This document shows positions 7,994 through 33,550 of a stretch of DNA of 64,000 bases, piece after piece. The first letter of the stretch is position 1; every line of letters begins with the position of its first letter. Under the pieces are notes generated by a model. The model worked only from the letters and a program-made list of their open reading frames with translations, did no database searches and was not told the origin of the DNA. The position numbers and the translations under genes were made by a program. Where the stretch lies: NCBI RefSeq assembly GCF_008298035.1, contig NZ_CP042910.1, forward strand, positions 1,508,001 through 1,572,000. The letters run 5' to 3'. The stretch comes from Gimesia maris. GTDB taxonomy: Bacteria > Planctomycetota > Planctomycetia > Planctomycetales > Planctomycetaceae.

Positions 7994-8459
7994 TGAGGAA
8001 TCCCGTATTAATGTTCGTATCTATCTAAATCTGAATTCAAACCCCAGGTCACTCACTCAATATACCAGAATCAGGGAGGGGAAGTTTCAGAAAAATGAGA
8101 TCACAGCACTCCCTGTTTCTAGAAGGTAGCACATTTAACCAGAGCGTCTGTCAATCTTTTATACTCGGTCCAAATGGTTCCGGAGACGCTACCGTAAAGC
8201 TGAACAGGCTCTAAGCTGTTGTTACCACGGCTTTAAGAATTCTGCCTGCGATTTGGCCGTGAAATGCGTTTACTCTTTGCATTTGTTTAGCATGTGTTTT
8301 TGTTAAGTTGTTTTATGGTAAATGGTTAAGGATTCTGGTTGACAGCGGAGGCTTCGTGAAAGAAACTTAATAAAGCAAAGGTTATTTTGTGTCTGGTTTT
8401 AATTAAAGTCTATTATTAAATTGCAAGTACTTAGTATTATTTTTGAGAGAAAGTCTGAT
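7994..8459. other. Divergent spacer with an 86-bp hairpin repeat
   Basis: This 466-bp spacer separates the sigma-factor gene (minus) from the DUF1559 gene (plus). It contains repeat copy A (8126-8211, listed separately). From about 8260 it is AT-rich and presumably carries the promoter for the DUF1559 gene. A TTGACA at 8338 has no well-spaced -10 partner. No gene or tRNA seen. Confidence 0.5.
8126..8211 (+). repeat. Dispersed hairpin repeat, copy A
   Basis: First copy of an 86-bp family. The left arm is CATTTAACCAGAGCGTCT and the right arm AGACGCTACCGTAAAGCTG. AGCGTCT and AGACGCT are exact reverse complements, and the flanking TTTA/TAAA also pair. By eye it matches copy B (10081-10166, opposite orientation) at 69 of 86 ungapped positions, with most differences in the loop. 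It contains no ORF. Confidence 0.82.
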
Positions 8460-9407
8460 ATGCAACGCTATAGTCAAACAGGGAAGTCACGTGGATTTAC
8501 TTTAATTGAGTTACTGGTGGTGATTGCGATTATCGCGATTCTGATTGCATTGCTTCTTCCTGCAGTGCAGCAGGCACGGGAAGCAGCACGCCGCAGTACC
8601 TGTAAAAATAACCTGAAACAGATCAGCCTGGCCATGCACAACTATGAGAGTGCGCATCAGGTCTTTCCCTATGCACACCGGGGCGCGAATGGGTGGTATC
8701 CTCAGGCATGTCATCAGCGAGATACCTGGTTCCATCGAATTTTACCGTATGTTGATCAGGCTCCCATGTATAATGCTTACGAGGCAGATTGCGCCAATGT
8801 TTCCGCCAGTACGAGCAATCATGTGCATAATATTTCCAGCAGCCAGAAGTTTGTGAGTACACCGTTACCGGCTTTCATGTGTCCTTCCGATGTTGGGCCT
8901 GCCTTTGCTGAAAATACCGGTGTCCGCTGGGGAGGAAGTTACATGGGCTGTATTGGCTGGGCCAGTAACCGTTCCACCGGTACTGATAATGGAATGTTCG
9001 GTTACGAAACGAAAACCAAAATGCGCGATATCACAGATGGTACGTCCAGTACGATGATGTTAAGCGAAGGCGTACAGCGCGTGGCAGTACCCACCGGGTT
9101 TTCCTGGGGATGTCCCGGCTGCTACTGGATTGGTGGGGCGCATGGGGAAGTGACTTTTACCGCGTATGAAACTCCCAACACGTCAGCGCCAGACCAGAAT
9201 TACCTCTGCAAGAGCACCACGGATGTCAATGCTCCCTGTGTCAATAACACATCCACGCGTTGGAACTATGCCCGCAGTCAGCATGTGGGAGGCGTGCATG
9301 TAGGCATGGCGGACGGTGCCGTTCGCTTTGTTTCAGAGAATATTGACCGTGGTACCTTTCGTGCCTTAGCGACCATTTCCGGTGAAGAAGTAGTCGGCGA
9401 ATTCTAG
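8460..9407 (+). CDS. DUF1559 prepilin-type N-terminal methylation protein
   Basis: A 315-residue pseudopilin-like protein. Residues ~10-35 carry the type IV prepilin signature, [15 protein letters not shown] followed by [21 protein letters not shown]. Cleavage is expected after the Gly of RGF, and the exposed Phe would be methylated. The body is the DUF1559 domain, ending in the [22 protein letters not shown] segment characteristic of this planctomycete-expanded family. An internal [17 protein letters not shown] is also typical. The start is set at the ATG at 8460, preceded by GAGAGAAAG. A TTG 39 bp upstream would place extra residues before the signature. It is paired with the lipoprotein gene downstream. 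The family's role is unknown; surface or pseudopilus structure is presumed. Confidence 0.93.
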
Positions 9408-9416
9408 ATCGCATCA

Positions 9417-9432
9417 CATTTAACCATAGCGT
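9417..9432 (+). repeat. Half copy of the hairpin repeat (left arm), copy D
   Basis: CATTTAACCATAGCGT is identical over 16 bases to the left arm of copy B. The matching right arm and loop are not evident downstream, so this looks like a truncated or eroded copy. It lies 10 bp after the DUF1559 stop codon, between the paired genes. Confidence 0.6.
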
Positions 9433-9572
9433 TTTACAAGCTGATCGACTGGGGAGCACAGCATCAGCTGATGATCAGTAGTATTGGAATCAGCGATACG
9501 GTATAAATTCAGCTGTTCCTTTTACCCTTGGCAGAGATGTCAGGGGGGCACTTATATTTCAGGAGATTTTTA

Positions 9573-9992
9573 ATGAAGTTGGCCTCATGCCTGTTACTGC
9601 TGGTAGGTTTTTCTGTTTCCCTCGTCGGCTGTGGTGGGGCAAGTGATGCACCTGTGACTTATCCCGTTTCTGGAAATGTCACGTTAGATGGAGAACCTTT
9701 AACAGAGGGAGATATTATTTTTCGCGATGCTTCGGGAAAAGCGGCAAGCGCTGCCGGAAAGATTGAAAACGGATCATATTCCCTGACTGCAACCGCTGGT
9801 AAGAAATCGGTTGTGATCACTGCGACGAAAGAGATCCCGGGGAAAACCGTTGTTGGCGGCGCACCCGATGAGCCACCGGTTCCTGCAGTCGAACAGTATC
9901 TTCCTGCGGAGTACAATGAGAAAACCACTCTGGAAGCCGACGTCAGCGATTCCGGTTCAAATGAATTTAGCTTCGAACTGAAGAGTAAATAG
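9573..9992 (+). CDS. Small lipoprotein with carboxypeptidase-regulatory-like domain
   Basis: 139 residues. The signal peptide ends in a lipobox (SLVGCGG), so the protein should be lipidated at the Cys near residue 20. The mature part begins VTYPVSGNVTLDGEPLTEGDI, the beta-sandwich pattern of carboxypeptidase-regulatory-like/transthyretin-like domains common in planctomycete lipoproteins that neighbour DUF1559 genes. The ATG at 9573 is favoured because AGGAG lies 8 bp upstream; an upstream in-frame start would prefix 15 unrelated residues. A strong terminator follows at 10034. Function unknown. Confidence 0.88.
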   Translation: MKLASCLLLLVGFSVSLVGCGGASDAPVTYPVSGNVTLDGEPLTEGDIIFRDASGKAASAAGKIENGSYSLTATAGKKSVVITATKEIPGKTVVGGAPDEPPVPAVEQYLPAEYNEKTTLEADVSDSGSNEFSFELKSK

Positions 9993-10033
9993 CAGAGCTG
10001 ACGAATACCCAAGCTGGGAACAGCATTCAATCA

Positions 10034-10075
10034 AAAAACGGGAGTCGAATTCTTCAGAATCCGACTCCCGTTTTT
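10034..10075 (+). terminator. Strong intrinsic terminator after the lipoprotein gene
   Basis: AAAACGGGAGTCG pairs with CGACTCCCGTTTT, and the inner GAATTC/GAATCC bases extend the stem with one mismatch. The loop is short and a T5 run follows. It ends the DUF1559/lipoprotein unit. A-rich bases on the other side mean it could also work on the minus strand. Confidence 0.88.
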
Positions 10076-10080
10076 GTTTT

Positions 10081-10166
10081 GACCGTGTCCAGTTTTACTG
10101 CAGCGTCTCCGAGACTATTTGGACCATATATCATAGATCGACAGACGCTATGGTTAAATGTGCTGC
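10081..10166 (-). repeat. Dispersed hairpin repeat, copy B (inverted relative to copy A)
   Basis: Read on the minus strand it begins GCAGCACATTTAACCATAGC, runs through a ~35-nt variable loop, and closes with GGAGACGCTGCAGTAAAACT. The length is identical to copy A with no gaps. Together with copy A it brackets the DUF1559/lipoprotein pair in inverted orientation. Confidence 0.82.
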
Positions 10167-10208
10167 GCTCTAGATTGATTCGTTGAGAATTTCACTGCTG
10201 ATTGCCAA

Positions 10209-10430
10209 TTATTGTTTTTGGATACATTCACGCGTCAGGATGCGGGCCTGTTTGAAGGCATGTTTGATCGTGTAGGCCCGGGCTTCAACCTGCTCTTCCG
10301 TATAATATTTGCCATGGTCGCTTGCGGGGAGACCGGCGAGTGATAATGTCAGTGGCAGCAGATCGAGAAACTCACGATATCGTCGTTGAACATCGTTGCT
10401 GGCGTTTGCTGAATCATTCACGGAAAGCAT
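10209..10430 (-). CDS. Small hypothetical protein
   Basis: A 73-residue soluble, helical protein, not recognised (RRYREFLDLLPLTLSLAGLP, then EEQVEARAYTIKHAFKQAR). The composition is that of a real folded protein and the frame is free of the low-complexity pattern of a shadow. The ATG at 10430 has GAGGGAG directly against it, too close for normal initiation; the GTG at 10421 has the same motif 9 bp away and may be the true start. It lies between repeat copy B and the FHA protein gene. No function can be assigned. Confidence 0.55.
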   Translation of the reverse strand: MLSVNDSANASNDVQRRYREFLDLLPLTLSLAGLPASDHGKYYTEEQVEARAYTIKHAFKQARILTRECIQKQ

Positions 10431-10730
10431 CTCCCTCTGTTGACATCATAGATTGTGAATTCACAGTTTCAGAACAGGATTTATTATGGTGAAACCGATG
10501 GTGACGAAGCAACTGTCGCTACAGTACTCGCTGTTCGGTCAATCAACCACACCTTTGATCTTATTCTCTGATTCTGCCAAACACAATTCAGAAAAGCAAT
10601 GGGAAGTCAGGATTATCGCGTATGCAGTTGATTCGGGAACAGGAAATCCAGTTGAGAGCGTATCGCTCCTGCTGACTGCAGTGGCAATACCGGAGAACTG
10701 CCAGGATTGACTGTAATCACGCTCTCTAAG

Positions 10731-11591
10731 CTATTTCTCGGCTTCCTGTTTGTTCTTCAACCCGGTCTGTTCCGGAGGTGGCAGAGTGACAGGAGGTAAC
10801 TCCGGCTTGGCTCGTCCCTGTTCTTCTTCCTGGGGTTGAGGAGGCTGTTGAGGATAACCCTGAGGAGGCATTTGATACTGCTGCGGATATGCTGGCATCG
10901 GTTGTTGCGGATAGCCCTGCTGTGGATAGTATTGTGGTGGCATCTGCTGGTACGGATAGGGTTGCTGTCCAGGATGCATCTGCTGAGGAGGATATCCATA
11001 TTGTGGCTGTGGCGGGTAACCGGCCTGTTGTGCTGCCTGTTCGTATGCCAGTTGCGCCTGACGCTGTTGTTCTGCCGAGAGAATCTGCGTATCCCCTTCA
11101 TAAACTCCCGGACCAGCAGGCGCTTCAGCAGCAGCGGGTGCTGCATCTGTTTGAGCAGGAGCAGTTGAAGAACCTTCTTCTGGTGAGTGTACAGGAATAT
11201 CGAACACCGTGTCAGAACCGGTCAGAATCTCGCTGCCGGGAGTTGGTTGCTCGGCCACTTCGGGTTTATCTGGCGTTGTTGCCGCATCAGCGGTGTGTGA
11301 CATTTGAATGATAAATTCAAGTTTACCGATCTGGATCTGGTCTCCATGAGACAGCTGGACTTCACCCTTGATCCGTTTTCCGTTGACCATCGTACCATTG
11401 GTGCTGCCAAAATCGCGTAAACGGACGCTATATTCATCAACTGTAAATACACAGTGGTGACGACTGACCATGTCGCTGTTAGGTCGCAGATGACAGTCTT
11501 CTTCCCGGCCAATCAAAAACTTTTTGCCATTGATGGGGATTTGTTTTCCATCATGGCGACCGCCAACGACTTTTAACGATAGCTGCAACAT
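10731..11591 (-). CDS. FHA-domain protein with a long Pro/Gln/Tyr-rich tail
   Basis: About 286 residues. The FHA domain occupies ~1-95 (IGREEDCHLRPNSDMVSRHH, FGSTNGTMVNGKRI), which binds phosphothreonine peptides. An Ala/Pro/Glu linker and a repetitive tail (~170-265) follow, built from YPQQ, GYPQQP and PQYGYPPQQ-type units; the tail is probably disordered and adhesive. No catalytic domain, signal peptide or membrane segment is present. The ATG at 11591 is preferred: GGAG lies 9 bp before it, but only 3 bp before the in-frame ATG at 11597. It is likely an adaptor in Ser/Thr-kinase signalling; no kinase is encoded nearby. Confidence 0.85.
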   Translation of the reverse strand: MLQLSLKVVGGRHDGKQIPINGKKFLIGREEDCHLRPNSDMVSRHHCVFTVDEYSVRLRDFGSTNGTMVNGKRIKGEVQLSHGDQIQIGKLEFIIQMSHTADAATTPDKPEVAEQPTPGSEILTGSDTVFDIPVHSPEEGSSTAPAQTDAAPAAAEAPAGPGVYEGDTQILSAEQQRQAQLAYEQAAQQAGYPPQPQYGYPPQQMHPGQQPYPYQQMPPQYYPQQGYPQQPMPAYPQQYQMPPQGYPQQPPQPQEEEQGRAKPELPPVTLPPPEQTGLKNKQEAEK

Positions 11592-11597
11592 AAACAT

Positions 11598-12028
11598 TCA
11601 CTCCATAGGTTTCAAACAGAACACTTCAAAGCTCTGGAAGAGGGACTGGTAATCTGAAATTACCATCCGTTTTCCGATCACCTGGATTTCATTTTTGACT
11701 TTAGTTTGGAAGAAAAATGTGAAATGAACAAGAAACAGAAATGAGTGATTTACCTTATAATCTGAAAATAAAAGGGAGCAAATTACAATGCTCATCTGGC
11801 CCGCATTGTGTGGTTTGACTCACTTTCCGGTAAGTAAAAAAGCCACTACTTTTTCCGTAACACGAAATCTCAATGAAATAAAAGTATGTATTACATACTT
11901 AACGCTATCAGGCATTTGACGAGATGTCAATAACTATAAAACACTCATGCTGCATGTGGATAATTTATTAATAAACAATTAAATATCCTTGATTCTGATA
12001 AGTGTTGATGATAATGCTTTTAAGACTA
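11598..12028. other. Intergenic spacer with a 19-bp palindrome
   Basis: This 431-bp AT-rich spacer lies between the lipoate-transferase stop and the FHA gene start; both genes are on the minus strand. It holds the palindrome at 11882-11900. I see no small gene, tRNA or clear terminator, though the FHA promoter must lie here. Confidence 0.5.
11882..11900. promoter_or_regulatory. Perfect 19-bp palindrome, possible operator
   Basis: AAGTATGTA-T-TACATACTT is a perfect dyad with one central base, about 290 bp upstream of the FHA gene start. Both arms are AT-rich, which fits a regulator site better than a terminator, because no T-run follows on either strand. Confidence 0.35.
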
Positions 12029-12802
12029 TTATTTACGTGCCGTCCAGGCATCTACGGAATATTTATCTTTTTCCAGACTCTCCGACTGAGACAGTTCTTC
12101 GTCAGTCAGGATTTGCGACTCCAGCGGGATGGTCAGGGCCTGCGATATGGCCTGGCAAAAGTCTTCTGTCAGCGTTTTTAGAAATGCCCTCTGGTATCGA
12201 TCAGCCTGATCAGCCAGATTCAGCAAACCGGGAAATTCAGAAGCGTGTTCTGATGTCAGCAGTAACAGGCTGCCGTGCTGCACAATTGCACCGCGTCTTC
12301 TGCGTTGTGCGCTTCCCAGAATTTTTTGTCCCTGATAAACCAGGTCTCTCTCATCGCCACGACCGAAGCAGAGAAAGGGTTCAGATTTCGATCGGAATGA
12401 GACGCCTCGAAACTGAACCTGCAGACCATGCGCCGCCAGAATATCAATAATGGGCTGGTGGATGGCCACATAGAGTTCGGGTGGTGTTTTGGCCAGAGGA
12501 TGGCTGCCGGGGAGTGCGAATGAGTATGTGAGTTCATGGTGATGCAGAATCGCTCCGCCACCAGAGAGTCTGCGCACGCGAGGCAGGTCCTTCCAGATCT
12601 CAGCAGAGTCTTCTGCCTCATTTTTCTGAAAGTATCCCAATGAGATGGTGGGTTGATTCCACTGATACCAGCGTAATGTGCACCGCTGCTGATTTGCTGC
12701 TGATTCCAGTAGTGTTTCATCAATGGCCATATTCCGGCTCCCTGACAGAGGGGCCGGCTCAATCATCAGGCGACAGTGATCCGGTTTTGCAGAGTGGGGC
12801 AT
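12029..12802 (-). CDS. Lipoate-protein ligase / octanoyltransferase (LplA-LipM type)
   Basis: A 257-residue member of the biotin/lipoate A/B ligase family. The RRLSGGGAILHHHELTYS segment forms the substrate pocket. Near residue 140 the CFGRGDERDLVYQGQKILGS motif carries a Cys at the position used as the acyl-accepting residue in LipM-type octanoyltransferases, followed by QHGSLLL. It would attach an octanoyl or lipoyl group to a carrier such as GcvH. It sits 49 bp after gcvPB in the same direction, and GcvH is encoded upstream in the cluster, which supports that role. Ligase versus transferase cannot be decided from sequence alone. Confidence 0.88.
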   Translation of the reverse strand: MPHSAKPDHCRLMIEPAPLSGSRNMAIDETLLESAANQQRCTLRWYQWNQPTISLGYFQKNEAEDSAEIWKDLPRVRRLSGGGAILHHHELTYSFALPGSHPLAKTPPELYVAIHQPIIDILAAHGLQVQFRGVSFRSKSEPFLCFGRGDERDLVYQGQKILGSAQRRRRGAIVQHGSLLLLTSEHASEFPGLLNLADQADRYQRAFLKTLTEDFCQAISQALTIPLESQILTDEELSQSESLEKDKYSVDAWTARK

Positions 12803-12851
12803 GTCGGAATCAGTCTGTAGAGTGAGTCACGGGAAAACGGACTGGAGCTGT

Positions 12852-14321
12852 TTATTGAGGCTCACAACACTGCAGGATCGGATTGCGGGCGGCAACCACT
12901 TCATCGGGTCTCTGGATCAGCGTGCTGTGTGGTGCCTGATGCAGAAATTCCGGCTCTTCCTGGAGGATTTTAATAATTGTTTCCGCGAAGGCATCAAGGG
13001 TTTCTTTTGATTCGGTTTCCGTGGGTTCCACCATGATGGCCTCAGGGACTACCAGTGGAAAGTAAACCGTGGGAGCGTGGAAGCCGAAATCGAGCAGCCG
13101 CTTGGCAATATCCATAGCAGTAATTCCATTGGCTGCTTTGGATTTGGAAGCGGAGGCTACAAATTCGTGCATACATAAGTCGCCATTGGGAACAGGTAGT
13201 ACGTCTTTGAGAAGCGCTTTCAGGTAATTGGCATTCAGCACGGCGTTTTCAGAAACCGCTTTGAGACCGGCTGCTCCCAGAGTTCTCAAATAGCAGTAGC
13301 CCCGGACGAGGATGCCGATATTTCCGTAAAAAGTCCGCACGCGACCAATCGATTTCGCCGGAGTCTCCAGGGTGTATTGGCTGGCTTCATCGGCTTCGGA
13401 GTGATAGTTAATCACCGGACCTGGCAGGTAGTCTGCGAGGAAATCACGCACGGCAATCGGTCCCGAACCTGGACCGCCGGCACCATGTGGTCCTGTGAAG
13501 GTTTTATGCACGTTGAAGTGCATCATGTCGCCACCAAAATCACCGGGACGGGTATAGCCGAGGATGGCGTTCATGTTGGCACCGTCGATATAGACCAGTC
13601 CACCGGCATCGTGCACCATTTGTGCAATCTGCTTGATGTCTTTTTCAAACAGTCCCAGCGTATTCGGGTTCGTGACCATGAAGACGGCAGTCTGATCATC
13701 CAGGTGTGCTTTGAGGTCTTCGAGATCAACCAGGCCTTCTTTGCTGCTGGCGAGCTGCACACAGTCAAAACCGGCAATCGCGGCACTGGCCGGGTTTGTC
13801 CCGTGTGCACTGTTGGGGAACAGAACTTTAGTCCGCTTTTCGCCCCGATCTTCAAAATAAGCTTTCGCAGTCAACAGGGCTGTGAATTCTCCCTGTGCAC
13901 CGGCGGCGGGTTGTAATGAGACAGCAGGCAGACCTGCAATTTCTGCCAGCATTTCCTGCGTCTCGTAAAGCATGCCCAGCATACCCTGCAGATCAGCCTG
14001 GTTCTGGTAGGGGTGCAGATCCACGATCCCCGGCAGGCTGGCCAGCCGCTCATGGCGTTTCGGATTGTACTTCATCGTGCAACTACCCAGAGGGTAGAAG
14101 TGGGTATCGACGCACATGTTCAACGTCGACAGATTGACAAAGTGACGGATCACATCAGATTCAGTGACTTCCGGGAGGCCGGTAGGTTTCTCTGCCAGTG
14201 CTGAAGTCGGAATCAGTTCACTCAAAGGGCGTTCCGGAACATCGGCCGCCGGGAATTCGGCGCCACGTCTGCCAGGTTGTGAGAGAGCAAATAAAGATTC
14301 AGTGGCCAGTTTATTTCGCAT
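12852..14321 (-). CDS. gcvPB: Glycine dehydrogenase (decarboxylating) subunit 2, P-protein C-terminal half
   Basis: A 489-residue PLP enzyme subunit. PLP would bind Lys273 in the HFNVHKTFTGPHGAGGPGSG motif, which is diagnostic for P-protein. YPLGSCTMKYNPK near residue 77 is also conserved. With subunit 1, encoded 65 bp upstream, it forms the split-type P-protein that decarboxylates glycine and passes the aminomethyl group to the lipoyl arm of GcvH. Length is normal for the subunit. The split form is common outside proteobacteria. Confidence 0.96.
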   Translation of the reverse strand: MRNKLATESLFALSQPGRRGAEFPAADVPERPLSELIPTSALAEKPTGLPEVTESDVIRHFVNLSTLNMCVDTHFYPLGSCTMKYNPKRHERLASLPGIVDLHPYQNQADLQGMLGMLYETQEMLAEIAGLPAVSLQPAAGAQGEFTALLTAKAYFEDRGEKRTKVLFPNSAHGTNPASAAIAGFDCVQLASSKEGLVDLEDLKAHLDDQTAVFMVTNPNTLGLFEKDIKQIAQMVHDAGGLVYIDGANMNAILGYTRPGDFGGDMMHFNVHKTFTGPHGAGGPGSGPIAVRDFLADYLPGPVINYHSEADEASQYTLETPAKSIGRVRTFYGNIGILVRGYCYLRTLGAAGLKAVSENAVLNANYLKALLKDVLPVPNGDLCMHEFVASASKSKAANGITAMDIAKRLLDFGFHAPTVYFPLVVPEAIMVEPTETESKETLDAFAETIIKILQEEPEFLHQAPHSTLIQRPDEVVAARNPILQCCEPQ

Positions 14322-14386
14322 GGTATTGAATGCTGCTTCGAAATATAAAAATGAAACTTGTTAAGCACTTGTGTAGATCAGGACGC

Positions 14387-15742
14387 TTATGCTTTCAAAG
14401 CGTTGACCAGTTGATCGATTTCTGCGCGTGTTCTCTGTTCGGTAATTGCCACCAGCACAGCTGTCTGGAATTTTTCAGGAGACTGCTGAGATTCGAACCG
14501 GGATAATTCGGGGCCCAGGTCAAAGCCGGCCTGACGTGCTTTACGCAGCAGGTAATCGGCCCCTTCGGAGCAACTGACTGCGAACTCCTTGAAGAAAGAA
14601 CGTTCCGGGAACAGAAGCTCGATGCCCTCGACTGACGCCAGTTGTTCGGCGGCATAGTGTGCTTTCTGGCAGGAGAGTTCAGCGACTTCGCGGATCCCCT
14701 GTTTGCCGAGCAGGGCGAGATAGACAGCAGCGCGAATCGCGATCAGTCCCTGGTTACTGCAGATGTTACTGGTGGCTTTGTCACGGCGGATATGTTGTTC
14801 GCGGGCCTGCAGGTTGAGAACGTAGCAGCGTTTGCCGTTGCGGTCTACTGTCTGGCCAATCAGACGACCAGGCATCCTGCGGACAAATTTTTCGCTGCAG
14901 GAGAACAGGCCCAGGTAGGGGCCGCCAAACTGCAGGGGGGTTCCCAGCGACTGACCCTCTGCAATTGCGATATCTGCACCATAGTCACCAGGACGTTTCA
15001 GAATCCCGAGGCTGATCGGATCATAAGACACGACAGACAGGGCACCATATTTGTGTGCGATTTCCGTTAACTGCTCTGCTTCTTCCAGCGTACCAAAGAA
15101 GTTAGGATGCTGGATGACCAGGCAGGCGGTTTCTTCGTTCATGGCCGCATCGACGGCAGCGGGATCAGCGGCTCCATCGATACAGGGAACAATGACGACT
15201 TCGCAGTTCAAATGGGTCAGGTAAGTTTCCACTACCTGTTGGTATTCGGGATGCAGCGAACCGAGCAGGACCACACGTTTGTGTCGATTGGTCACCCGCA
15301 TTGCCATGAATGCAGCTTCGCTGACACAGGTTCCCCCTTCGTACAGGCTGGCATTAGAAACATCCATACCGGTTAACTGGCAGATCAGCGATTGAAATTC
15401 AAAAAAGGTCTGCAGGCTGCCTTGGCTGGCTTCAGCCTGATAGGGTGTGTAAGCAGTGTAGAATTCACCCCGGCGGGCAATTTCATCGACGGCAGCAGGG
15501 ATGAAATGATCGTAGGCTCCGCCCCCCTGCATACAGACACGAGTCGTCGGTCCGACATTCTTTGCCGCAAGACTGGTGACATGCGCCTGCAGTTCCATTT
15601 CTGTCAGCGCGGGCGGGATTTCAAGCGGACGGTCCAGTCGTAATTCAGACGGGATGGTGGCAAATAAAGCTTCCAGCGATTCGACGCCGATGGTTTTCAG
15701 CATTTCCTGCTGCTGTTCTGGTGTGTTGAAGAGGTAGGGCAC
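14387..15742 (-). CDS. gcvPA: Glycine dehydrogenase (decarboxylating) subunit 1, P-protein N-terminal half
   Basis: A 451-residue subunit matching the usual length. The N-terminus PYLFNTPEQQQEMLKTIGVE and the later FIPAAVDEIARRGEFYTAYTP are family features, as is the YTPYQAEASQGSLQTFFEFQ stretch. It is fold-type I PLP-like but lacks the PLP lysine, which is in subunit 2. The start ATG is at 15742, 180 bp after the gcvH stop codon. It forms an obligate heteromer with the gcvPB product. Confidence 0.96.
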   Translation of the reverse strand: MPYLFNTPEQQQEMLKTIGVESLEALFATIPSELRLDRPLEIPPALTEMELQAHVTSLAAKNVGPTTRVCMQGGGAYDHFIPAAVDEIARRGEFYTAYTPYQAEASQGSLQTFFEFQSLICQLTGMDVSNASLYEGGTCVSEAAFMAMRVTNRHKRVVLLGSLHPEYQQVVETYLTHLNCEVVIVPCIDGAADPAAVDAAMNEETACLVIQHPNFFGTLEEAEQLTEIAHKYGALSVVSYDPISLGILKRPGDYGADIAIAEGQSLGTPLQFGGPYLGLFSCSEKFVRRMPGRLIGQTVDRNGKRCYVLNLQAREQHIRRDKATSNICSNQGLIAIRAAVYLALLGKQGIREVAELSCQKAHYAAEQLASVEGIELLFPERSFFKEFAVSCSEGADYLLRKARQAGFDLGPELSRFESQQSPEKFQTAVLVAITEQRTRAEIDQLVNALKA

Positions 15743-15922
15743 AGTTCACTCGATCAATAACGAAAGTTTGGTAAACGCTGTTGGGATTATAGTCGCAGAA
15801 GAAACGTGGGAACTCTGTTTTATCCATTTTCCGAGGGGATTGAATGATTCGTCCCCCCTCAGGTCCGGAAATGCAGTGAACAGCATGTGAAAACCGTTCA
15901 TCACCAGAATTGCCAGTTGGTT

Positions 15923-16309
15923 TCAGTGTGCTTCAGACTCACAAAACTTTTTATAGTCGTCGGCGTTCATGCACTGGTCCAGTTCCGCGGGATTCGACAT
16001 TTTGACTTTTGTGATCCAGCCGCTACCAAAAGGATCATCCGACAGTGGAGACTGATCATCCACGAGGGCTTCGTTTGCCTCCACAATTTCCCCGCTGACA
16101 GGGGCATAGAGGTCACTGACGGCTTTGACACTTTCGACTTCGCCGAACACTTTACCGGCTTCACAGGTCGACCCGATTTTGGGGAGTTCAATATAAACCA
16201 GATCGGTCAATTGATTTACTGCGAAGTCAGATATTCCGACTGTTGCAATATCGCCTTCGACACCGATCCATTCATGCGTTTTAGTAAATTTTAAGCTGGC
16301 CTGATCCAT
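15923..16309 (-). CDS. gcvH: Glycine cleavage system H protein
   Basis: 128 residues. It is the lipoyl carrier of the glycine cleavage system, with the lipoylated Lys62 in GEVESVKAVSDLYAPVSGEI. The start is the ATG at 16309, which has AGAGGG about 11 bp upstream and yields the normal H-protein N-terminus (LKFTKTHEWI). The open frame continues 60 codons further upstream, but that part has no H-protein character. It is the first glycine-cleavage gene of the cluster. I looked for, and did not find, glycine-riboswitch core sequences in the 285-bp spacer upstream. Confidence 0.95.
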   Translation of the reverse strand: MDQASLKFTKTHEWIGVEGDIATVGISDFAVNQLTDLVYIELPKIGSTCEAGKVFGEVESVKAVSDLYAPVSGEIVEANEALVDDQSPLSDDPFGSGWITKVKMSNPAELDQCMNADDYKKFCESEAH

Positions 16310-16594
16310 GATTGCATAACCCTCTGTGTTATTTCTTTTCCCTGGAACTTGAACGGCTGAGACCCTGTAGAAAGAAGTCTTAAATTCCCTGATGACACAT
16401 CGTCGACGATACAGAGATTTGTTCCATTTGAAAAGGAATCGGTAAGGGAAATTCCATGACTCGTGCGGTATATCTGCGAGACTCGTCAATGCCGTCTTCA
16501 GCAGACAGGAACCCCAGGCGCAGCGAAGCTGTTAGAGGTCTGACTGGCTCACGCTGATGGGGAATATTCGTTTAGACATCGGGTGAAAAAAAGC

Positions 16595-17050: not shown

Positions 17051-17238
17051 TGAAACTCTTTTGTATCAAGTGGCAAGAAGCTAATTGTAAATAGTGATAA
17101 AACCCTGATTCAGATGTTCGAAATGAGGTACCCCTGTTGAATGATCTCTGAAGTAGATCAGGGTTTATATCGACCCCGTTGCAGGTGGATTATCTATCGT
17201 AACAACTGAATTTATGACGGGTTAACATTATCTTCATA

Positions 17239-17262
17239 ATGGTAAGGTTAATGGTTTACCAT
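17239..17262. repeat. Short inverted repeat in the rpiB upstream spacer
   Basis: ATGGTAA and TTACCAT form a 7-bp stem with a 10-nt loop in the 300-bp spacer (17051-17350) between rpiB and the Sua5-phosphatase gene. The rest of that spacer is AT-rich and shows nothing else that I can support. It could be a weak transcript end or an operator. Confidence 0.3.
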
Positions 17263-24951: not shown

Positions 24952-24954
24952 CAA

Positions 24955-25491: not shown

Positions 25492-25683
25492 GATGATTTT
25501 CCTTCTCTTTAAATTGGGGTTGTCTGTAAGAATTTCTGATAAATTGGCCCTACGCTCACCTTACCGCGTGACAAGAAAAATCACAAAGCAGATGGTCGCA
25601 ATTATGCCCAGAACCTGAATTTCCAGGTCGGGGAATACCGGAAACAGTCTGAGTTGGTGAACAGATTGTAGAGCAAAAACTGA

Positions 25684-28600
25684 TTACTCAGGTGTGCCAA
25701 ATCCGCCGCCACCTGGGGTTTTGATCGTCAGTATATCGCCTGCTGCAACGGAGAGAGAGAATTTTCCTCCCAGTGACTCCGTCGTGGATCCGTCCGCTTT
25801 CTGCAGCAGATTTTCCCCAATCTGCCCCGGAGTACCGCCGGCCAGACCGAAGGGCGCGTATTCTCCCCTCCGTTCTGAGATCAGTGAAATCTTTAACGGT
25901 TTCAGGAATTCAATCTGACGAATAATGCCCGCACCGCCGTGGTGTTGGCCCGCGCCTCCGGAGCCCTGGCGGATGGAAAATTCGTGCAATCGCACCGGGT
26001 AGCGGCGTTCGATAATCTCGGCGTCTGTCAGTCGGGTATTTGTCATGTGGGTATGCACGGCGTCAGCGCCATCCTGCGCGGCGGTCGCGCCGCTTCCGCC
26101 ACAAATGGTTTCATAATAGCCGAATGTCTCATCACCGAACGTCAGGTTGTTCATGGTCCCCTGGCTGGCGGCTGCTTTGTTGAGCGCGCCCAGCAGAGTG
26201 TCGACGGTGCGCTGTGAAGTTTCCACGTTGCCCCCCACCATCGCCGCGCATTCTGCGGGCGTCTCCCGTTCGGGGGGATTGAGAAAACATTCCGGAAGAA
26301 CAATGTTGATGGGAGCCAACACGCCACTGTTCAGCGGGATATCTTCCTGAATCAGACAGCGAAAGACATACAGCACGGCGGCATTCACAATGGCCCGATT
26401 GGCATTCAGGTTCGTCTTCAGAACCGGTCCGGTGCCAGTGAAGTCAACCACGGCGCTGGAGCCTTTAATCGTGATTTTGACTGTAAGCGGCACGCCGTTA
26501 TCCAGATGATCTGTGAAGGAGTAAACGCCATCTTCAATCTCAGATAAGGCAAGTTGCATTTTTTCCGTGGCTGCCTGCTGGATATGTTTCATGTAAGCCA
26601 GCACAACACTCAGCGAGTAGCGACGAACCAGGTCGTTCAGCAGACTCACGCCACAATTGTTGGCGGCAACCTGGGCAGAGACGTCTGCCAGATTATCTTC
26701 GACCGAGCGGGAAGGGAACGCGCCCGATTTCAGCAGTTCCCGCAAAGCATCTTCGCGAGATGTTCCCTGGTCGACCAGCTTGAAATTGCGAATCAGCACA
26801 CCTTCATCTGCCAGTGTTTTCGAAAACGGTGGCATGCTGCCGGGTACGATCCCCCCGATCTCTGCATGGTGTGCACGACTGGCGGTGAAGAAGATCAGTT
26901 CGTTTGATTCTGCGTGATGCACGGGAGTGATGACGGTTACATCGGGAAGATGCGAGCCACCTCGATAAGGATCGTTGGTCACGAAGACATCTCCGGGTGC
27001 CAGGTCCGGGTTGTCGGCGATGATGCGTTTGACGGTTTCACTCATGGCGCCCAGATGCACGGGGATATGGGGCGCGTTGACCACCAAATCGCCGGTTGCG
27101 GAAAAGACGGCACAACTGAAATCGAGGCGTTCTTTGACATTGGTTGAGATTGAGGTTCGTTGCAGCGTGATGCCCATCTGTTCGGCAATGGAAGCAAACA
27201 GGTTGTTGAAGATTTCCAGCATGACCGGGTCGGCAGTCGTCGCTATTTTGGCGGGAGGCGTTGTACCGTCAGATGTCTCCTGGATCAGTGTTTCACCGCG
27301 GGAGAGAATGCTGGCTGTGAAGCCGGGGTCAATGATGACAGTGGAAATCGCTTCACAGATAATCGCCGGGCCTGAGATCTGATCACCGGGATGCAAATCT
27401 TCGCGCAGGTAGACTGCCGTGGGCTGGATGGTTCCCTGAAAACAGGTCTGTGTCGTTTCCAATGGTGTGGGGCTGCGATTGATGAGTTCTGATTCCGGGA
27501 GGTTGGGTTCCTCCATGCGTCCGATAATTTCCGTACGCATCGCGGTGACTTCGATGGCCCGACTCTTGTGGGTGTAACCGTAGAGACGCTGATGTTCCTG
27601 TTCAAACCGGGTGAATTCGTCCTGCCCCGACTGACAGTGAACCTGAATCGTCGCATCAGTTCTCAGATAACGCATTTCCAATGAGTGCAGGGGGGCATCA
27701 ATGCGTTCCGGGGGAATGCCTTCGGCGCGAACTTCTTCGTAAACACTCTCATCGAGTTCTGTGAATCGCCGCTGCAGTTCCTGTTTGAGATCGGCGGACC
27801 AGGTCTGCAGGACCGACTGCTGTCCGAACCGTCGCACATCAGCCTGTCCGATGCCAAACGCGCTGAGGATTCCTGAATAGGGATGAATCAGAACTTCATG
27901 AATGCCGAGTGAACGGGCAATGGCACAGGCATGTTGCGAACCTGCGCCCCCGAAACTGACCAGGGCATAATCGGCGGGATCATAGCCCCGGGCCACCGAG
28001 ATATTACGGATGGCGCGAACCATGTTTGCATTTGCAATCTGCAGAAAACCTTCTGCCAGTTCGAGTGGGGTGTAGGTTTTTCCCATGGGAGAAGCAGCAA
28101 TCTCTTCGCAGAGCTGCGTCAGACGCTGCTCAACAGACTGCCTGTCTAAGACGAAGGGAAAGCGACTTGGGATAATTTTGCCCAGGTACAGGTTCAGGTC
28201 GGTGACGGTGAGCGGGCCGCCCCGCCCGTAACAGGCGGGACCAGGATCCGCACCGGCACTGTCAGGACCGACGTGGAGTTTGATGCCATCGAAGCCGCAG
28301 ATACTGCCTCCACCGGCGGCGACTGTTTCAATACTCAGCATAGGGGCCACGATCCGCACACCTGCTTTCGTGGTTTCGAATTCCCGCTCATATTCGCCGT
28401 CGAAGCGGGAGACATCGGTACTCGTGCCTCCCATGTCAAAGCCGATGGATCGGGGGAAACCGGCTGTTTCCGCGACACGCGAATAACCGATCACACCTCC
28501 TGCAGGACCGGAGAGAATACTGTCTTTGCCGACGAAATGATCCGCATCGACAAGACCGCCGGCGGACGTCATGAGTTTCAACTCACTGCTTTTGAGTGGC

Positions 28601-29523
28601 GTGCGGAGTTTGCGAATATAGTCCTTGAGAATTGGATTTAAATAGGCGTCCATGACGGTCGTATCGCCGCGGGAGACGATTTTGATGAGAGGCGACAGGC
28701 GACTGGACACGCTGATTTCGTCAAAGCCGACTTCGGCAGCGAGGCGGGCGACCAGTTCCTCATGCCTGGGGTTGGCAAATGAATGCAGCAGACAGATCGC
28801 CAGCGATTCCACGCCGGTTGCCTTGAGTTGCTCAAGTTGCTGACGGATACGAGCGGGATCGGGGGCGTGGAGTACATTGCCTTCCGCATCGATTCGTTCC
28901 TCGATTTCCAGCGCGGTTTCAAAGAGGGGCTCTGGTTTTTGAATGGCCAGATCGAACAGCCGAGGGCGGTCCTGGTTGCCGATCAGCAGGACATCGGCGA
29001 ATCCTTTGGTAGTGATGAAAGCAGTACGGGCACCGTTACGCGTGAGCAACGCATTGGTGCCACGCGTGGTTCCCAGTTTGACGCTGATATTGGAAATCGG
29101 GTCGGATTTCATCAGGCCCAGAATCCAGCGGATGGCCAGGATGGGGGCTTCTTCACCGGAGGCGAGTTCATAGCTGGTGGAGACCTGTACTGTGGGAGGC
29201 AGGGCGGGGTGGAAGGTGAGGGTTCCGCTCTGGTTGTCAAACCGCGTCACTTGTGCGGTATGCAGGGATTCTCCCTCATTATTCAGAAATTCAATCTGAT
29301 ACTCCTGCCAGAAGTTTGCCGGGTTGCCGACTCGGGATGGGTCGACTATCGTGTCAGGGGTAGTAATTTCCTGTACATGACCTTTGGTGATACCCGAACT
29401 AAGAGTCTTGAACGGGATGAATTCGCTGTCAGGTGAACGGGCGATGCAGTCTGTGAAGGTACCGCCGACATCGATCCAGAATTCCCATTTTTGATTTGTC
29501 TTTTCTGATTTAAATTCAATCAT
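25684..29523 (-). CDS. 5-oxoprolinase / hydantoinase, HyuA-HyuB fusion
   Basis: About 1279 residues, the size of eukaryote-type 5-oxoprolinases in which the A and B subunits are fused. The A half opens with FWIDVGGTFTDCIARSPDS, the ATPase-like phosphate motif. It continues with GPAGGVIGYSRVAETAGFPR, then IGFDMGGTSTDVSRFDG. The B half begins about residue 740 and contains VFVTNDPYRGGSHLPDVTVI, SRAHHAEIGGIVPGSMPP, and a Gly-rich end (GGGGFGTPE). It hydrolyses 5-oxoproline to glutamate with ATP, or related hydantoins. The ATG at 29523 is favoured; an in-frame ATG at 29550 adds nine residues. It stands alone without neighbours on its transcript. Confidence 0.93.
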   Translation of the reverse strand: MIEFKSEKTNQKWEFWIDVGGTFTDCIARSPDSEFIPFKTLSSGITKGHVQEITTPDTIVDPSRVGNPANFWQEYQIEFLNNEGESLHTAQVTRFDNQSGTLTFHPALPPTVQVSTSYELASGEEAPILAIRWILGLMKSDPISNISVKLGTTRGTNALLTRNGARTAFITTKGFADVLLIGNQDRPRLFDLAIQKPEPLFETALEIEERIDAEGNVLHAPDPARIRQQLEQLKATGVESLAICLLHSFANPRHEELVARLAAEVGFDEISVSSRLSPLIKIVSRGDTTVMDAYLNPILKDYIRKLRTPLKSSELKLMTSAGGLVDADHFVGKDSILSGPAGGVIGYSRVAETAGFPRSIGFDMGGTSTDVSRFDGEYEREFETTKAGVRIVAPMLSIETVAAGGGSICGFDGIKLHVGPDSAGADPGPACYGRGGPLTVTDLNLYLGKIIPSRFPFVLDRQSVEQRLTQLCEEIAASPMGKTYTPLELAEGFLQIANANMVRAIRNISVARGYDPADYALVSFGGAGSQHACAIARSLGIHEVLIHPYSGILSAFGIGQADVRRFGQQSVLQTWSADLKQELQRRFTELDESVYEEVRAEGIPPERIDAPLHSLEMRYLRTDATIQVHCQSGQDEFTRFEQEHQRLYGYTHKSRAIEVTAMRTEIIGRMEEPNLPESELINRSPTPLETTQTCFQGTIQPTAVYLREDLHPGDQISGPAIICEAISTVIIDPGFTASILSRGETLIQETSDGTTPPAKIATTADPVMLEIFNNLFASIAEQMGITLQRTSISTNVKERLDFSCAVFSATGDLVVNAPHIPVHLGAMSETVKRIIADNPDLAPGDVFVTNDPYRGGSHLPDVTVITPVHHAESNELIFFTASRAHHAEIGGIVPGSMPPFSKTLADEGVLIRNFKLVDQGTSREDALRELLKSGAFPSRSVEDNLADVSAQVAANNCGVSLLNDLVRRYSLSVVLAYMKHIQQAATEKMQLALSEIEDGVYSFTDHLDNGVPLTVKITIKGSSAVVDFTGTGPVLKTNLNANRAIVNAAVLYVFRCLIQEDIPLNSGVLAPINIVLPECFLNPPERETPAECAAMVGGNVETSQRTVDTLLGALNKAAASQGTMNNLTFGDETFGYYETICGGSGATAAQDGADAVHTHMTNTRLTDAEIIERRYPVRLHEFSIRQGSGGAGQHHGGAGIIRQIEFLKPLKISLISERRGEYAPFGLAGGTPGQIGENLLQKADGSTTESLGGKFSLSVAAGDILTIKTPGGGGFGTPE

Positions 29524-29700
29524 TTCATCAAATATTTCGTAGGCTTTCACAATTATTTTCTAGAATTTTTTGAATTCTCTGATGTAAACTTGCGTATAAA
29601 GTATCAGAACAGATTACCCGCGATAACGAAAGTGCTGCACCCGGTGGTAGAATAAAAGCAGCGTATAAAATACCTGCAGCAAAAGAGTATTTACTTGTAC

Positions 29701-29728
29701 TTGAATTTTGTGCACCGTGATCTATAAT
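29701..29728 (+). promoter_or_regulatory. Sigma-70-like promoter for the Bax-inhibitor gene
   Basis: TTGAAT (29701-29706) and a perfect TATAAT (29723-29728) are separated by 16 bp. Predicted transcription starts ~108 bp before the ATG at 29844. It is in the divergent spacer with the 5-oxoprolinase gene. Confidence 0.6.
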
Positions 29729-29843
29729 TAGCATGCCTGCCAGCCGCGGATGTAAAAGTGGCGAAAGCAGACTGATCGAAACTGATGACCCAAACTGTGT
29801 TCGTCTGGAACATCCCTTCTCACTCACTTGGAGAAAACTGTCA

Positions 29844-30578
29844 ATGAACAACTACACTCCTGATTATTATGACCAGGATACAACGGCGGGTGGCGGTGTC
29901 TTTGCCATTGACGCAATTGCTTCCGAACGCGCCGCGTTTATCCGCAAGACCTACATGCACCTCACCGGTGCAATTTTCGCCTTTATGGGCCTGGAATTCA
30001 TCCTGTTCAGCAACAAAGCTCTCGTGGAAGGCATGATGGGCGCCATTGGTGGGAACTGGTGGCTGGTACTGATCGCTTTCATGGCAGCCAGTTGGGTTGC
30101 CAGCGCCATGGCTTCCAGCGCGAAATCGCTGGCTGTGCAGTATGCAGGCCTGGGATTATACATTGTTGCAGAAGCGTTGATCTTTGTCCCGATTTTGTAT
30201 ATCGCGACTCAGTTTGCTAATCCCACCGTAATTCCCATTGCGGCGATTATTACCCTGTGTATTTTTGGTGGCTTGACCGCCTATGTGTTTGTGACCGGGG
30301 CCGACTTCTCCTTCATGGGAGGTTTCCTGACGATTGCCGGTCTGGCAGCAATCGGAATTGCCATCGGTGCGTCGCTGTTCGGCTTCTCACTGGGAATCTG
30401 GTTTGCAGCTGCGATGGTCATTCTGCTCAGTGGTTACATTCTCTATGATACTTCGAACATTCTGCATCATTACTCGACCGATCAGTATGTGTCTGCTTCA
30501 CTGGCACTGTTTGCCTCTGTTGCCACACTGTTCTGGTACGTGCTGCGAATCGTCATGATGTTTACTTCAGATGACTAA
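29844..30578 (+). CDS. Bax inhibitor-1 / YccA family membrane protein
   Basis: A 244-residue protein with seven predicted hydrophobic segments from ~residue 32 onward. The family pattern is FIRKTYMHLTGAIFAFMGLE at the start, SFMGGFLTIAGLAAIGIAIG in the middle and SGYILYDTSNILHHYSTDQY near the end, the last containing the conserved Asp. These are inner-membrane proteins implicated in calcium leak and protease regulation. The start at 29844 has GGAGAAAAC upstream; the longer frame adds an implausible hydrophilic region. A strong terminator follows. Confidence 0.93.
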   Translation: MNNYTPDYYDQDTTAGGGVFAIDAIASERAAFIRKTYMHLTGAIFAFMGLEFILFSNKALVEGMMGAIGGNWWLVLIAFMAASWVASAMASSAKSLAVQYAGLGLYIVAEALIFVPILYIATQFANPTVIPIAAIITLCIFGGLTAYVFVTGADFSFMGGFLTIAGLAAIGIAIGASLFGFSLGIWFAAAMVILLSGYILYDTSNILHHYSTDQYVSASLALFASVATLFWYVLRIVMMFTSDD

Positions 30579-30611
30579 GTCTGAATGAATGTCTGATTTG
30601 AGATAAAAATG

Positions 30612-30647
30612 AAAAGCCCCGGCAGAGCGATCTGCCGGGGCTTTTTT
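30612..30647 (+). terminator. Intrinsic terminator, probably bidirectional
   Basis: AAAAGCCCCGGCAGA and TCTGCCGGGGCTTTT form a 15-bp stem capped by a GCGA tetraloop, with T6 on the plus side and A-run on the other. It serves both the Bax-inhibitor gene and the convergent MsrP-like gene ending at 30666. Confidence 0.93.
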
Positions 30648-30665
30648 AATTTGAAACTCTGCTTT

Positions 30666-31673
30666 TCAGCCTGTATACAGGCTGGCGACATATTCGCCGT
30701 AACCATTGAAGGGTTTCGTGTCGTAGCGTTTTTCGGTTCCCAGCATCCATTCTGTACGCTGACTCCAGCGGGGATGGGGTACGTCGGGTTCTACGTTCGC
30801 GACAAATCCGTATTCTTCAGGGTTGACGGTATTCCAGAACGTCGCGGGCTGGTCTTTGGTGAGTCTGATTTTTACGATGGATTTACCCGACTTGAATCCA
30901 TACTTCCAAGGGACGACCAGTCGAATGGGGGCGCCGTTCTGTTTGAGTAAGGGGGCTCCATACAGGCCCGTGGCAATGAAGGCCAGATCATTCATTGCTT
31001 CGGGCATCGTCAAGCCTTCCGTGTAAGGCCATGGCCAGGTTCCCGGGCCGCTGGATTCCATATAAGGAGCCTGTTGGGGTTTGTTGAACGTTTCGAAGGC
31101 GACAAATTTCGCAGACGCTTTCGGTTCCACCAGTTTTAACAGACTGGCCAGCGGGAAACCGGTCCAGGGCACACACATGGCCCAGGTTTCAACACAGCGA
31201 TGTCGGTAGGCGCGTTCTTCAAATTTTAACTCTTTAGACAGGTCATCCAGATCGAATGTACGCGGCTTTGCGCATTCCCCTTCCACGGTGACAGACCAGG
31301 GAGCGGTTTGGAAATGCTCCACGTATTTCCAGGCCTGTTTGGAAGTGGGGCCGGTGAACTCGTAGAAGTTGGTGAATTTTTCCGCTTCAATGGGGTCAGT
31401 CTCGGGCCGCCCGTATTTGAATGCAGGATTTCGCTGTGCTGGATAAATCGACCCTGATGCTTGGGGTAGAGGAGTCGTCGCTCCCGCCTGTTCGATTTCT
31501 TCTTTGGTTGCCTGTTCGCAGCTTGCGAGCAAACCAGCAAAGCCGGCGATGCCCAGTCCTGTTCCCATGCGCTGCAGAAATTCCCGGCGGTATAGTTTCC
31601 GGTTTTGAAACACTTCGACAGGGGTGTGCTCGTGTTCTGGAACGTTCCAGATTTTTCGGATGTGGTGATTCAT
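30666..31673 (-). CDS. msrP: Molybdopterin-dependent protein-methionine-sulfoxide reductase catalytic subunit (MsrP-like)
   Basis: A 335-residue sulfite-oxidase-fold molybdoenzyme. The N-terminus has a twin-arginine motif (YRREFLQRMGTG) and a hydrophobic core ending LLASCEQ, which also fits a lipobox at Cys52. Cys160 in AYRHRCVETWAMCVPW is the molybdenum ligand position. The C-terminus carries IRLVVPWKYGFKSGKSIVKI, typical of the family. It would reduce methionine sulfoxide in envelope proteins. The b-type cytochrome partner MsrQ is not next to it. ATG at 31673 has AGGAA ahead; the frame extends 13 codons more. Confidence 0.9.
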   Translation of the reverse strand: MNHHIRKIWNVPEHEHTPVEVFQNRKLYRREFLQRMGTGLGIAGFAGLLASCEQATKEEIEQAGATTPLPQASGSIYPAQRNPAFKYGRPETDPIEAEKFTNFYEFTGPTSKQAWKYVEHFQTAPWSVTVEGECAKPRTFDLDDLSKELKFEERAYRHRCVETWAMCVPWTGFPLASLLKLVEPKASAKFVAFETFNKPQQAPYMESSGPGTWPWPYTEGLTMPEAMNDLAFIATGLYGAPLLKQNGAPIRLVVPWKYGFKSGKSIVKIRLTKDQPATFWNTVNPEEYGFVANVEPDVPHPRWSQRTEWMLGTEKRYDTKPFNGYGEYVASLYTG

Positions 31674-31977
31674 CGAAGTTCCTTGTCGTGAGTCAGCTGA
31701 GTGAAGAACCATCTAAGGCGAGACTGCTGCTTTACTGGTTCTTTCAGGGAGGTATTTCAAATCGAAGTTGCCGGTAATATCAGTATAACCGTCAAGTTAC
31801 ACGCAAAATAGCCTGTTTGGTTGATTGCTTCAATCTTTATATCTTTGTCAGACCGCCAGTATTCCGAAGTTAGAGGTGTTCGTTTACGTAGAAAAGTTCA
31901 GCCAGTCTTCTCATTTTGACATACGGCGTAAGAGTGCCGTTCGTGGGAAGAGAGTCTGACGTATTGAGAGTGGTCCG

Positions 31978-33468
31978 ATGAAATACGACATTGTTATTAT
32001 TGGAAGTGGTCCTGCCGGTCAAAAGGCGGCGATCGCTGCTTCGAAGCTGGGGAAGCGTGTTGCCATTATTGAACGCAACTTTCGTGGCATGGGGGGCGTC
32101 TGCCTGCATAAGGGGACGATTCCGTCTAAGACCATGCGAGAAGCCATTTTGTATCTGACCGGCTATCGTCATCGGGATGTGTACAGCAAATGGTACCGCC
32201 GCAAGCGTCGGATCACGATGCAGGATCTGCGTTTGAAACTGGCCGACGTGGCTGAGCATGAACTGGAAATTATTCATGATCAGCTGGAACGGAACGGCGT
32301 GGAAGTCTATATAGGTGAAGCAAAGTTCGTCAGCCCGCATGAAGTGGAAGTCGACTGCGAAACAGGGCGAAAGCAGTTGTATGGTGACTACATCCTGGTC
32401 GCAACCGGGACCAAGCCTTCACGTCCGCCACACATCCCCTTTGATGGTGAGACGATTTTTGATTCGGATGAAATTATTGATCTGAAAGAGATTCCACGTT
32501 CGATGATCGTTGTGGGTGGTGGTGTGATCGGTATCGAATATGCCATCATGTTCGCGACGCTGGGTGTGGAAGTTACCGTGTTGGATGGTCGAGAGCGACT
32601 GCTGGAATTTTGTGATCGCGAAATTATTGACGCGTTGATTCACCATGCCCGTTCCCTGGGAATGATCTTCCGGATGGGAGAAGAAGTGGTTGGCATCGAG
32701 CGATTTTCTGATTCGATGGCGGCAGTGCAGACCGAGAGTGGCAAACGTCTGGTGGCAGATTCCGTATTGTATACGGTGGGACGCGTGGGTGATGCGGACG
32801 AACTGAATTTTCAGGCAGCCGGCCTGGAACCTGATGAACGCGGTCGACTGTGGTGCAACGAAGAGCATCAGACGTGGGTGCCTCACATCTACGGGGCCGG
32901 TGATATTGTAGGCTTCCCGGCGCTGGCGAGTGTTTCGATGGAGCAGGGGCGTCGCGTGATCTGTAATGCATTCAACGAACCCTTTGAAGCATTCGACCTG
33001 ATGCCTTATGGGTTGTTCACGATCCCGGAAATCTCGATGGTCGGAAAAACCGAACAACAACTGACAGACGCGCATATCCCGTATGAAGTCGGTGCGGCCC
33101 GCTATCGGGAAATCGCCCGCGGACAGATATCGGGTGACCGGGACGGGATGTTGAAAATCCTGTTTCACCGGGAAACGCTTAAGATTCTGGGTATTCATGC
33201 GATTGGTGAAGCCGCGACGGAGATTGTGCACATCGGTCAGACGGTCATGTCTTTTGGCGGCACGATCGAATATTTCCGCAACGCCGTCTTTAACTATCCG
33301 ACGATGGCAGAATGTTACAAAGTGGCCGCCTTCGACGCGTTTGAGAAAATGAGCCTGGATCGACTGTTTGAAGAATCAAAGCTCACCAAAATCAGTGCCG
33401 ATCTCGCGCTGCACAAACTCGAAGAGCAACCAGCCGAACTGGATGAAGAGGAAACCGTGGAAATCTAG
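31978..33468 (+). CDS. sthA: Soluble pyridine nucleotide transhydrogenase (SthA-like flavoprotein)
   Basis: A 496-residue FAD/NAD flavoprotein. FAD-binding IIGSGPAGQKAAIAASKLGK is at the start, the NAD(P) fold near residue 180 has MIVVGGGVIGIEYAIMFATL, and the C-terminus has FNYPTMAECYKVAAFDAF. The site that is a redox disulfide in lipoamide dehydrogenases reads GGVCLHKGTIPSK: Cys42 stays but the second Cys is Thr47. This is the SthA pattern and argues against a dihydrolipoamide dehydrogenase role. It would balance NADH and NADPH. Confidence 0.86.
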   Translation: MKYDIVIIGSGPAGQKAAIAASKLGKRVAIIERNFRGMGGVCLHKGTIPSKTMREAILYLTGYRHRDVYSKWYRRKRRITMQDLRLKLADVAEHELEIIHDQLERNGVEVYIGEAKFVSPHEVEVDCETGRKQLYGDYILVATGTKPSRPPHIPFDGETIFDSDEIIDLKEIPRSMIVVGGGVIGIEYAIMFATLGVEVTVLDGRERLLEFCDREIIDALIHHARSLGMIFRMGEEVVGIERFSDSMAAVQTESGKRLVADSVLYTVGRVGDADELNFQAAGLEPDERGRLWCNEEHQTWVPHIYGAGDIVGFPALASVSMEQGRRVICNAFNEPFEAFDLMPYGLFTIPEISMVGKTEQQLTDAHIPYEVGAARYREIARGQISGDRDGMLKILFHRETLKILGIHAIGEAATEIVHIGQTVMSFGGTIEYFRNAVFNYPTMAECYKVAAFDAFEKMSLDRLFEESKLTKISADLALHKLEEQPAELDEEETVEI

Positions 33469-33470
33469 AC

Positions 33471-33550
33471 TGTATCCGGTTTTACTGTAGCGTCTCCTGG
33501 TCCATTAGGGCTGTGCAGTATGGAGTGAGAGACGCCATGGTGAAATGCGA
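33471..33550 (-). repeat. Dispersed hairpin repeat, copy C
   Basis: Read on the minus strand: GCATTTCACCATGGCGTCT, a ~30-nt loop and GGAGACGCTACAGTAAAACC. The spacing matches copies A and B without gaps over about 77 aligned bases, but the loop differs strongly. It starts three bases after the SthA stop codon. Confidence 0.72.

Follow-up and report, generated by a model that had tools for sequence, protein, structure and literature searches.

The stretch of 64,000 nucleotides analysed here, referred to as the window, lies at positions 1,508,001–1,572,000 of the 7.82 Mb Gimesia maris genome (G000) and carries several copies of a short repeat with complementary arms, which raises the question of what these repeats are and how they came to be dispersed. 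A sequence-only reading had described an 86-bp unit at three sites, with conserved arms at constant spacing around a drifting loop, and its left arm at a fourth, and had interpreted it as either a REP/MITE-like mobile element or an RNA hairpin belonging to no described family. It proposed a genome-wide copy count, a search of related genomes with a covariance model, and a search for target-site duplications and for a transposase with common terminal sequences, for example of the IS200/TnpA-REP type. We conclude, with a probability of about 0.9, that these repeats represent a non-autonomous MITE of 96 bp that is mobilised in trans by a DDE transposase of the IS630/Tc1 type, and that the element inserts at TA and duplicates it, appears to carry the C outside its left TA with it, has ends that re-create stop codons, and persists in G000 as what look like drifting relics.

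Anatomy, copy number and distribution of the repeat

All four sites are present in the window (Table 1), and they exceed chance expectation: two arm patterns, searched with up to three mismatches allowed, match three and four times, against 0.08 and 0.07 expected. The length of 86 bp needed correction to 96 bp, as the ends extend to CTAG/CTAR, and the fourth site, thought to hold the left arm only, is indeed a truncated left half. The gene that terminates in copy C is predicted to have 497 codons.

Table 1. Copies of the 96-bp repeat in the window, with bordering reading frames
Feature	Position	Strand	Remarks
ORF 7436-7993	7436-7993	-	Sigma-factor-like by eye; borders copy A
MITE copy A	8119-8214	+	96 bp; ORF 7436-7993 and ORF 8421-9407 on either side
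ORF 8421-9407	8421-9407	+	DUF1559/pilin-like by eye; borders copy A
MITE copy D	9404-9453	+	Truncated, left half only; TAG at 9405-9407 serves as stop codon for ORF 8421-9407
MITE copy B	10078-10173	-	96 bp; intergenic
MITE copy C	33465-33560	-	96 bp; terminal TAG at 33466-33468 is the in-frame stop of the upstream gene

The G000 consensus in the plus orientation consists of CTAGAGCGCATCACATTTAACCATAGCGTCT, a 34-bp middle CTCAATCTATTATACTCGGTCCAAATGGCCCTGG, and AGACGCTACAGTAAAACTGGACACAGTCTAR; the element is non-coding, multicopy and bounded by TA, with imperfect terminal inverted repeats (TIRs) of 31 bp. Constant arm spacing holds for most copies, with the 34-bp middle found in 135 of 179 raw arm pairs when the two strands are counted together. 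The arms are conserved as described, but the loop does not drift, the 34-bp middle also being conserved genome-wide; the contrary impression arose because three fairly old copies were compared.

The 16-mer half-site AGACGCTAYRGTWAAA occurs 94 times in G000, and its reversed control pattern not at all. Copies were counted in a 1.28 Mb sample composed of the window and 64 stretches chosen for carrying half-sites. An ungapped profile over the 96 bp finds 96 copies in this sample and nhmmer recovers 114 distinct elements, of which 107 are near-full and 7 partial, with none in the reversed sequence by either method; 80 of the 114 contain the exact half-site and 34 lack it. Extrapolation, corrected for the seeded sampling, gives roughly 290 copies in the whole genome, and a whole-genome model search yields at least 150 matches, with 150 of 1,431 candidates scored.

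The two ends of the element are not equivalent, since the bases just outside them are differently distributed. Among G000 copies with both TAs intact (n = 31), 27 have C outside the left end and 27 have A or G outside the right end (Fisher p 0.002, the four right bases that are T or C omitted); the same counts in G002 are 59/62 and 57/62.

Element matches are present in all 17 Gimesia genomes examined, ranging from 1 to at least 150 per genome. Single matches are found in G005, G006 and G014, two in G007, and 21–86 in ten genomes; the counts for G000, G002 and G010, each at least 150, are the highest and are lower bounds, since no more than 150 candidates were scored in any genome, and two genomes are 74–76% complete. 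Under stricter filters 21 of 170 genomes across the order have a match, and outside Gimesia these include G081, a member of another genus with strong matches, and three more genomes with one weak hit each. With an E-value limit of 0.05, G081 gives 106 matches, of which many are partial or represent one place on both strands. The consensus of 22 of its best copies, which are nearly uniform, equals that of G000 in length and is identical to it at 67/96 positions; the G081 version of the element is young. Copies thus extend throughout Gimesia and into G081, and a pattern scan of named genomes recovered 11 stretches, every one in a Gimesia assembly. Weak model matches were also observed in three further genera of the family (L130, L133 and L136 in G066; L129, L134 and L137 in G080; L131 in G048), and these may be distant relatives with shared ends. 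We considered whether the low-copy genomes hold a source gene and rejected this, as the copies at L084, L088, L089 and L093 adjoin different ordinary genes, L089 and L093 being one site in two close genomes. A spread from 1 to at least 150 copies among species of one genus makes MITE bursts and extinction traceable.

Insertion sites and an IS630 partner

Genomes G001 and G008 are close relatives (85–95% identical where compared), and nine G001 copies were compared with G008 (L099 by search, eight by G008 windows), of which three have usable flanks. In two of these three comparisons, with G008 empty and G001 filled, one TA becomes two, so that target-site duplication is observed. L099 is absent from G008, where the flanks meet at a single TA, the right flank being diverged. 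L178 reads GAT-T-TA-G-CC when empty and GAT-C-TA...TA-G-CC when filled, and the flanks at L178/L186 are clean on both sides. The empty site at L179 is ACAA where NTAA is expected, and thus demonstrates absence of the element but not the TA. IS630 elements prefer CTAG/TA.

The left outer base is C in the filled sites and T or A in the empty ones at L178 and L179; for L099 it is T when empty, dependent on the alignment of the diverged flank. As this C is nearly fixed in filled sites and differs in empty ones, simple TA duplication is insufficient to explain it, and at these three sites the C outside the left TA seems to travel with the element. In G002, tandem copies arranged head to tail repeat every 92 bp and have one CTAG in common, as would be expected if an element had inserted into the end of an existing copy.

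DDE_3 (IS630) matches number 31 and are distributed among 9 of the 17 Gimesia genomes, with none in G000 at E 0.001. Twenty of the 31 loci (L108–L127, including two of the five in G010) were scanned for the arms. In two of them, L108 in G008 and L109 in G005, the left-arm sequence (25–26 of 28 bases) bounds a 1,027-bp element on either side, and this element runs from CTAG to CTAG; the two are 98% identical over 999–2026, and the alignment breaks at CTAG on both sides, with divergence outside. Each codes for an HTH ORF of 111 aa and an overlapping DDE ORF of 213 aa, arranged around an A-run in a manner that suggests frameshifting. Pfam identifies HTH_Tnp_IS630 and DDE_3 in the element, and the DDE ORF matches NCBIfam transpos_IS630 (IS630 family transposase) with an E-value of 1.2e-41. 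L118 and L119 have one arm-like end each, with a score of 20.8 where the background reaches at most 19.0.

A transposase element with common terminal sequences therefore exists, although the likeness is strong for the left arm only. The MITE right arm matches the IS ends at 17–19 of 28 bases, near the 15–18 seen at unrelated IS630 loci, and the sole aligned parts are the CTAGA start and the TAGCG end. The 34-bp middle has no match in the IS interior (by eye, 60 bases per IS end), and therefore the MITE is not a simple deletion of the L108/L109 element. MITE-like ends are absent at both DDE_3 loci of G002, and G005 carries the IS630 element yet a single MITE. G081 has the MITE together with an IS630 element of the same type, which lies at the edge of a contig and whose right end, CTAGAGCGTATTGCG...TAGCG, is related. 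Flanks of L108 were searched for in G001, G005 and G007 for an empty site of the IS itself, and no orthologous flanks were found. The G005 element (L109:23-1003) sits at the TAG end of another ORF, transposase-like by eye, so that insertion at a stop codon may apply to the IS630 element as well.

In the mechanism that we propose, the IS630 transposase would recognise terminal inverted repeats of about 28 bp, CTAGAGCGCATCAC...TAGCG, and would insert the MITE in trans at TA with duplication of the TA. The partner would since have been lost from G000, whose copies are probably drifting relics, as no IS630 transposase is detected there. The repeat is short, non-coding and multicopy with terminal inverted repeats, has a left TIR in common with an autonomous IS630 element, and is flanked by a duplicated TA in two comparisons of three; its best classification is as an IS630-superfamily MITE, from which the weak right arm and the one non-TA empty site detract. 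This assignment accounts for a repeat that is conspicuous in Gimesia genomes by its high copy number, and ties it to one IS630 type.

The high copy number and mostly constant 34-bp spacing of the arms would also be expected of a dispersed protein-binding site serving chromosome organisation. This is most improbable, being disfavoured already by the range of copy number within a single genus. Moreover, the three examined sites are empty in the sister genome, though other sites are common to close sisters (L082/L083 and L089/L093), and the left end of the repeat coincides with that of a transposon.

Stop codons at the ends of the element

Gene positions were predicted with a home-made ORF/hexamer caller (960 genes, coding fraction 0.81). 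Most copies lie in spacers: 95 of the 96 in G000 extend no further than 20 bp into any predicted gene, though genes cover 81% of the sequence. By type of gap 23 are convergent, 11 divergent and 61 tandem, and the corresponding numbers for 3,366 random intergenic points are 334, 1,064 and 1,968.

A neighbouring gene ends within the first 2–6 bp of the element in 30 of the 96 G000 copies, with an exact CTAG register in 25 of these, compared with 4.5% expected if each intergenic TA and each TAA/TAG stop is equally likely (p 1.5e-17). For G002, where the best-scoring copies rather than a random set were used, the figures are 14/77 against 4.0% expected (p 2e-6), with 2/77 copies inside predicted genes. 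A caller-free test agrees with this result. It takes ORFs of at least 100 codons that reach the element and compares those stopping at the terminal TA with those running in through the two other frames: the numbers are 24 versus 7 and 6 in G000 (96 copies), 14 versus 3 and 5 in G002 (72 copies), 12 versus 0 and 1 at chosen loci of other Gimesia (30 copies), and 8 versus 1 and 2 in G081 (22 copies). Three additional ORFs run in through the first frame. Among random TA sites, viewed from one side only, 70 of 3,900 are stop codons of such ORFs. Among the copies examined, roughly one fifth to two fifths are stop-codon insertions.

A reading frame entering the element from either side would meet the terminal TA followed by G, so that insertion into a TAA or TAG stop would re-create the stop, leave the protein intact and presumably be neutral. 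L178 is an example: an ORF of 345 open codons, common to G008 and G001 and ending NRRNLI-stop, reads ATT TAG in the empty site and ATC TAG in the filled one, with an identical C-terminus. L099 has no long ORF at its end (14 codons). The family is thus a countable case of how a small mobile element can persist in a gene-dense genome, by inserting at stop codons and restoring them.

The excess at stop codons reflects either targeting or selective removal of other insertions. The young copies of G081 lie at stops too, which leans slightly towards targeting, although 22 copies are few. A stronger and rather doubtful version is that the IS630 transposase or the MITE actively favours in-frame stops (a T-N-TA-R-like target), with ends shaped to rebuild TAG from either side in a self-healing manner; the left C would then take the place of the last codon's third base, which is often silent. 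If true, this would be a mobile element specialised for stop codons.

Proximity to gene ends bears also on the proposal of a structured RNA or 3'-end hairpin under selection, read from the minus orientation, in which the arm mismatches become G-U. The consensus does fold better in that orientation (-36 kcal/mol, z -4.57) than in the plus orientation (-23.7, z -2.77), because the arm differences give G-U there; on the plus strand, A-C arm mismatches outnumber G-T ones in 92 of 96 copies, and the better-folding strand is in the mRNA for 28 of 44 stop-codon copies (G000 and G002 together). This last lean, 28 versus 16, has a p of 0.096 and becomes 31 versus 27 when four sets are tested without the caller; copies beside gene 3' ends show no preferred orientation overall (54 versus 53). 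RNAalifold on 76 copies finds no consensus pair, so that a covariance model built from these copies is sequence-only, and substitutions mostly break pairs singly. The window has no Rfam match at the gathering threshold, and the G081 consensus lacks the one-sided G-U pattern. We treat the better minus-strand fold as a property of one ancestor sequence. The RNA-hairpin half of the original interpretation, with neither covariation support nor overall strand bias, is thus very unlikely.

Relationship to known repeat families

No published description of this exact 96-bp Gimesia family was found in the literature listings searched, in keeping with the earlier statement that no described family was known; the kind of element, on the other hand, is well described. 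In the available excerpts of the sources, the nearest relative in kind of the Gimesia MITE is RUP, the repeat unit of pneumococcus, with IS630-Spn1. RUP is about 107 bp, has 108 intergenic copies, IS630-like TIRs and a TA target, and is proposed to be moved by IS630-Spn1 (excerpts of PMC2229807 and PMC3049150). It differs in host, the likeness is one of description rather than of aligned sequences, and a stop-codon preference is not reported in the RUP text available. MITEPsy1 of Pseudomonas syringae is similar in having 100 bp and 18-bp TIRs and in inserting after CTAG or YTAA (excerpt of PMC3189936), but there the link is to ISPsy2 (listed as IS5?) and the duplication measures 4 bp, whereas the Gimesia MITE is associated with IS630 and TA.

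GTAG/CGTC REPs with RAYTs are likewise high-copy palindromes, but are 20–40 bp long and Y1-linked, in contrast to a 96-bp, IS630-linked element with TA duplication. The termini of REPs, another class, often provide TAG stop codons (excerpt of PMC3733652), and this prior report lowers the novelty of the Gimesia stop-codon observation. It also lends some appeal to a REP/BIME-type palindrome moved by a RAYT (an IS200/IS605-like Y1 transposase), as does the presence in G000 of five Y1_Tnp loci, with a half copy about 370 bp past one gene. That Y1 gene sits in its own, unrelated repeat array, and the other four loci have no copy within about 1.5 kb; none of the five, all scanned with about 1.5 kb of flank, is flanked by copies on both sides, and the suggested IS200/TnpA-REP link was rejected. 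The unit length of 96 bp, the imperfect TIRs of 31 bp, the TA duplication and the IS630 end also speak against a REP, and the RAYT explanation, largely contradicted by the IS630 ends, is highly improbable. The REP/MITE-like mobile family of the sequence-only reading accordingly survives as a MITE, given its spacer copies, transposon-shared end and TA duplication at two sites, and not as a REP. At L075:500-2150 (G000:C1, about 1,682,800–1,684,460) a Y1/RAYT-like gene lies within an array of GGTGGCCCCGGATGTAATCCGGGG-type repeats, apparently a separate REP family in G000.
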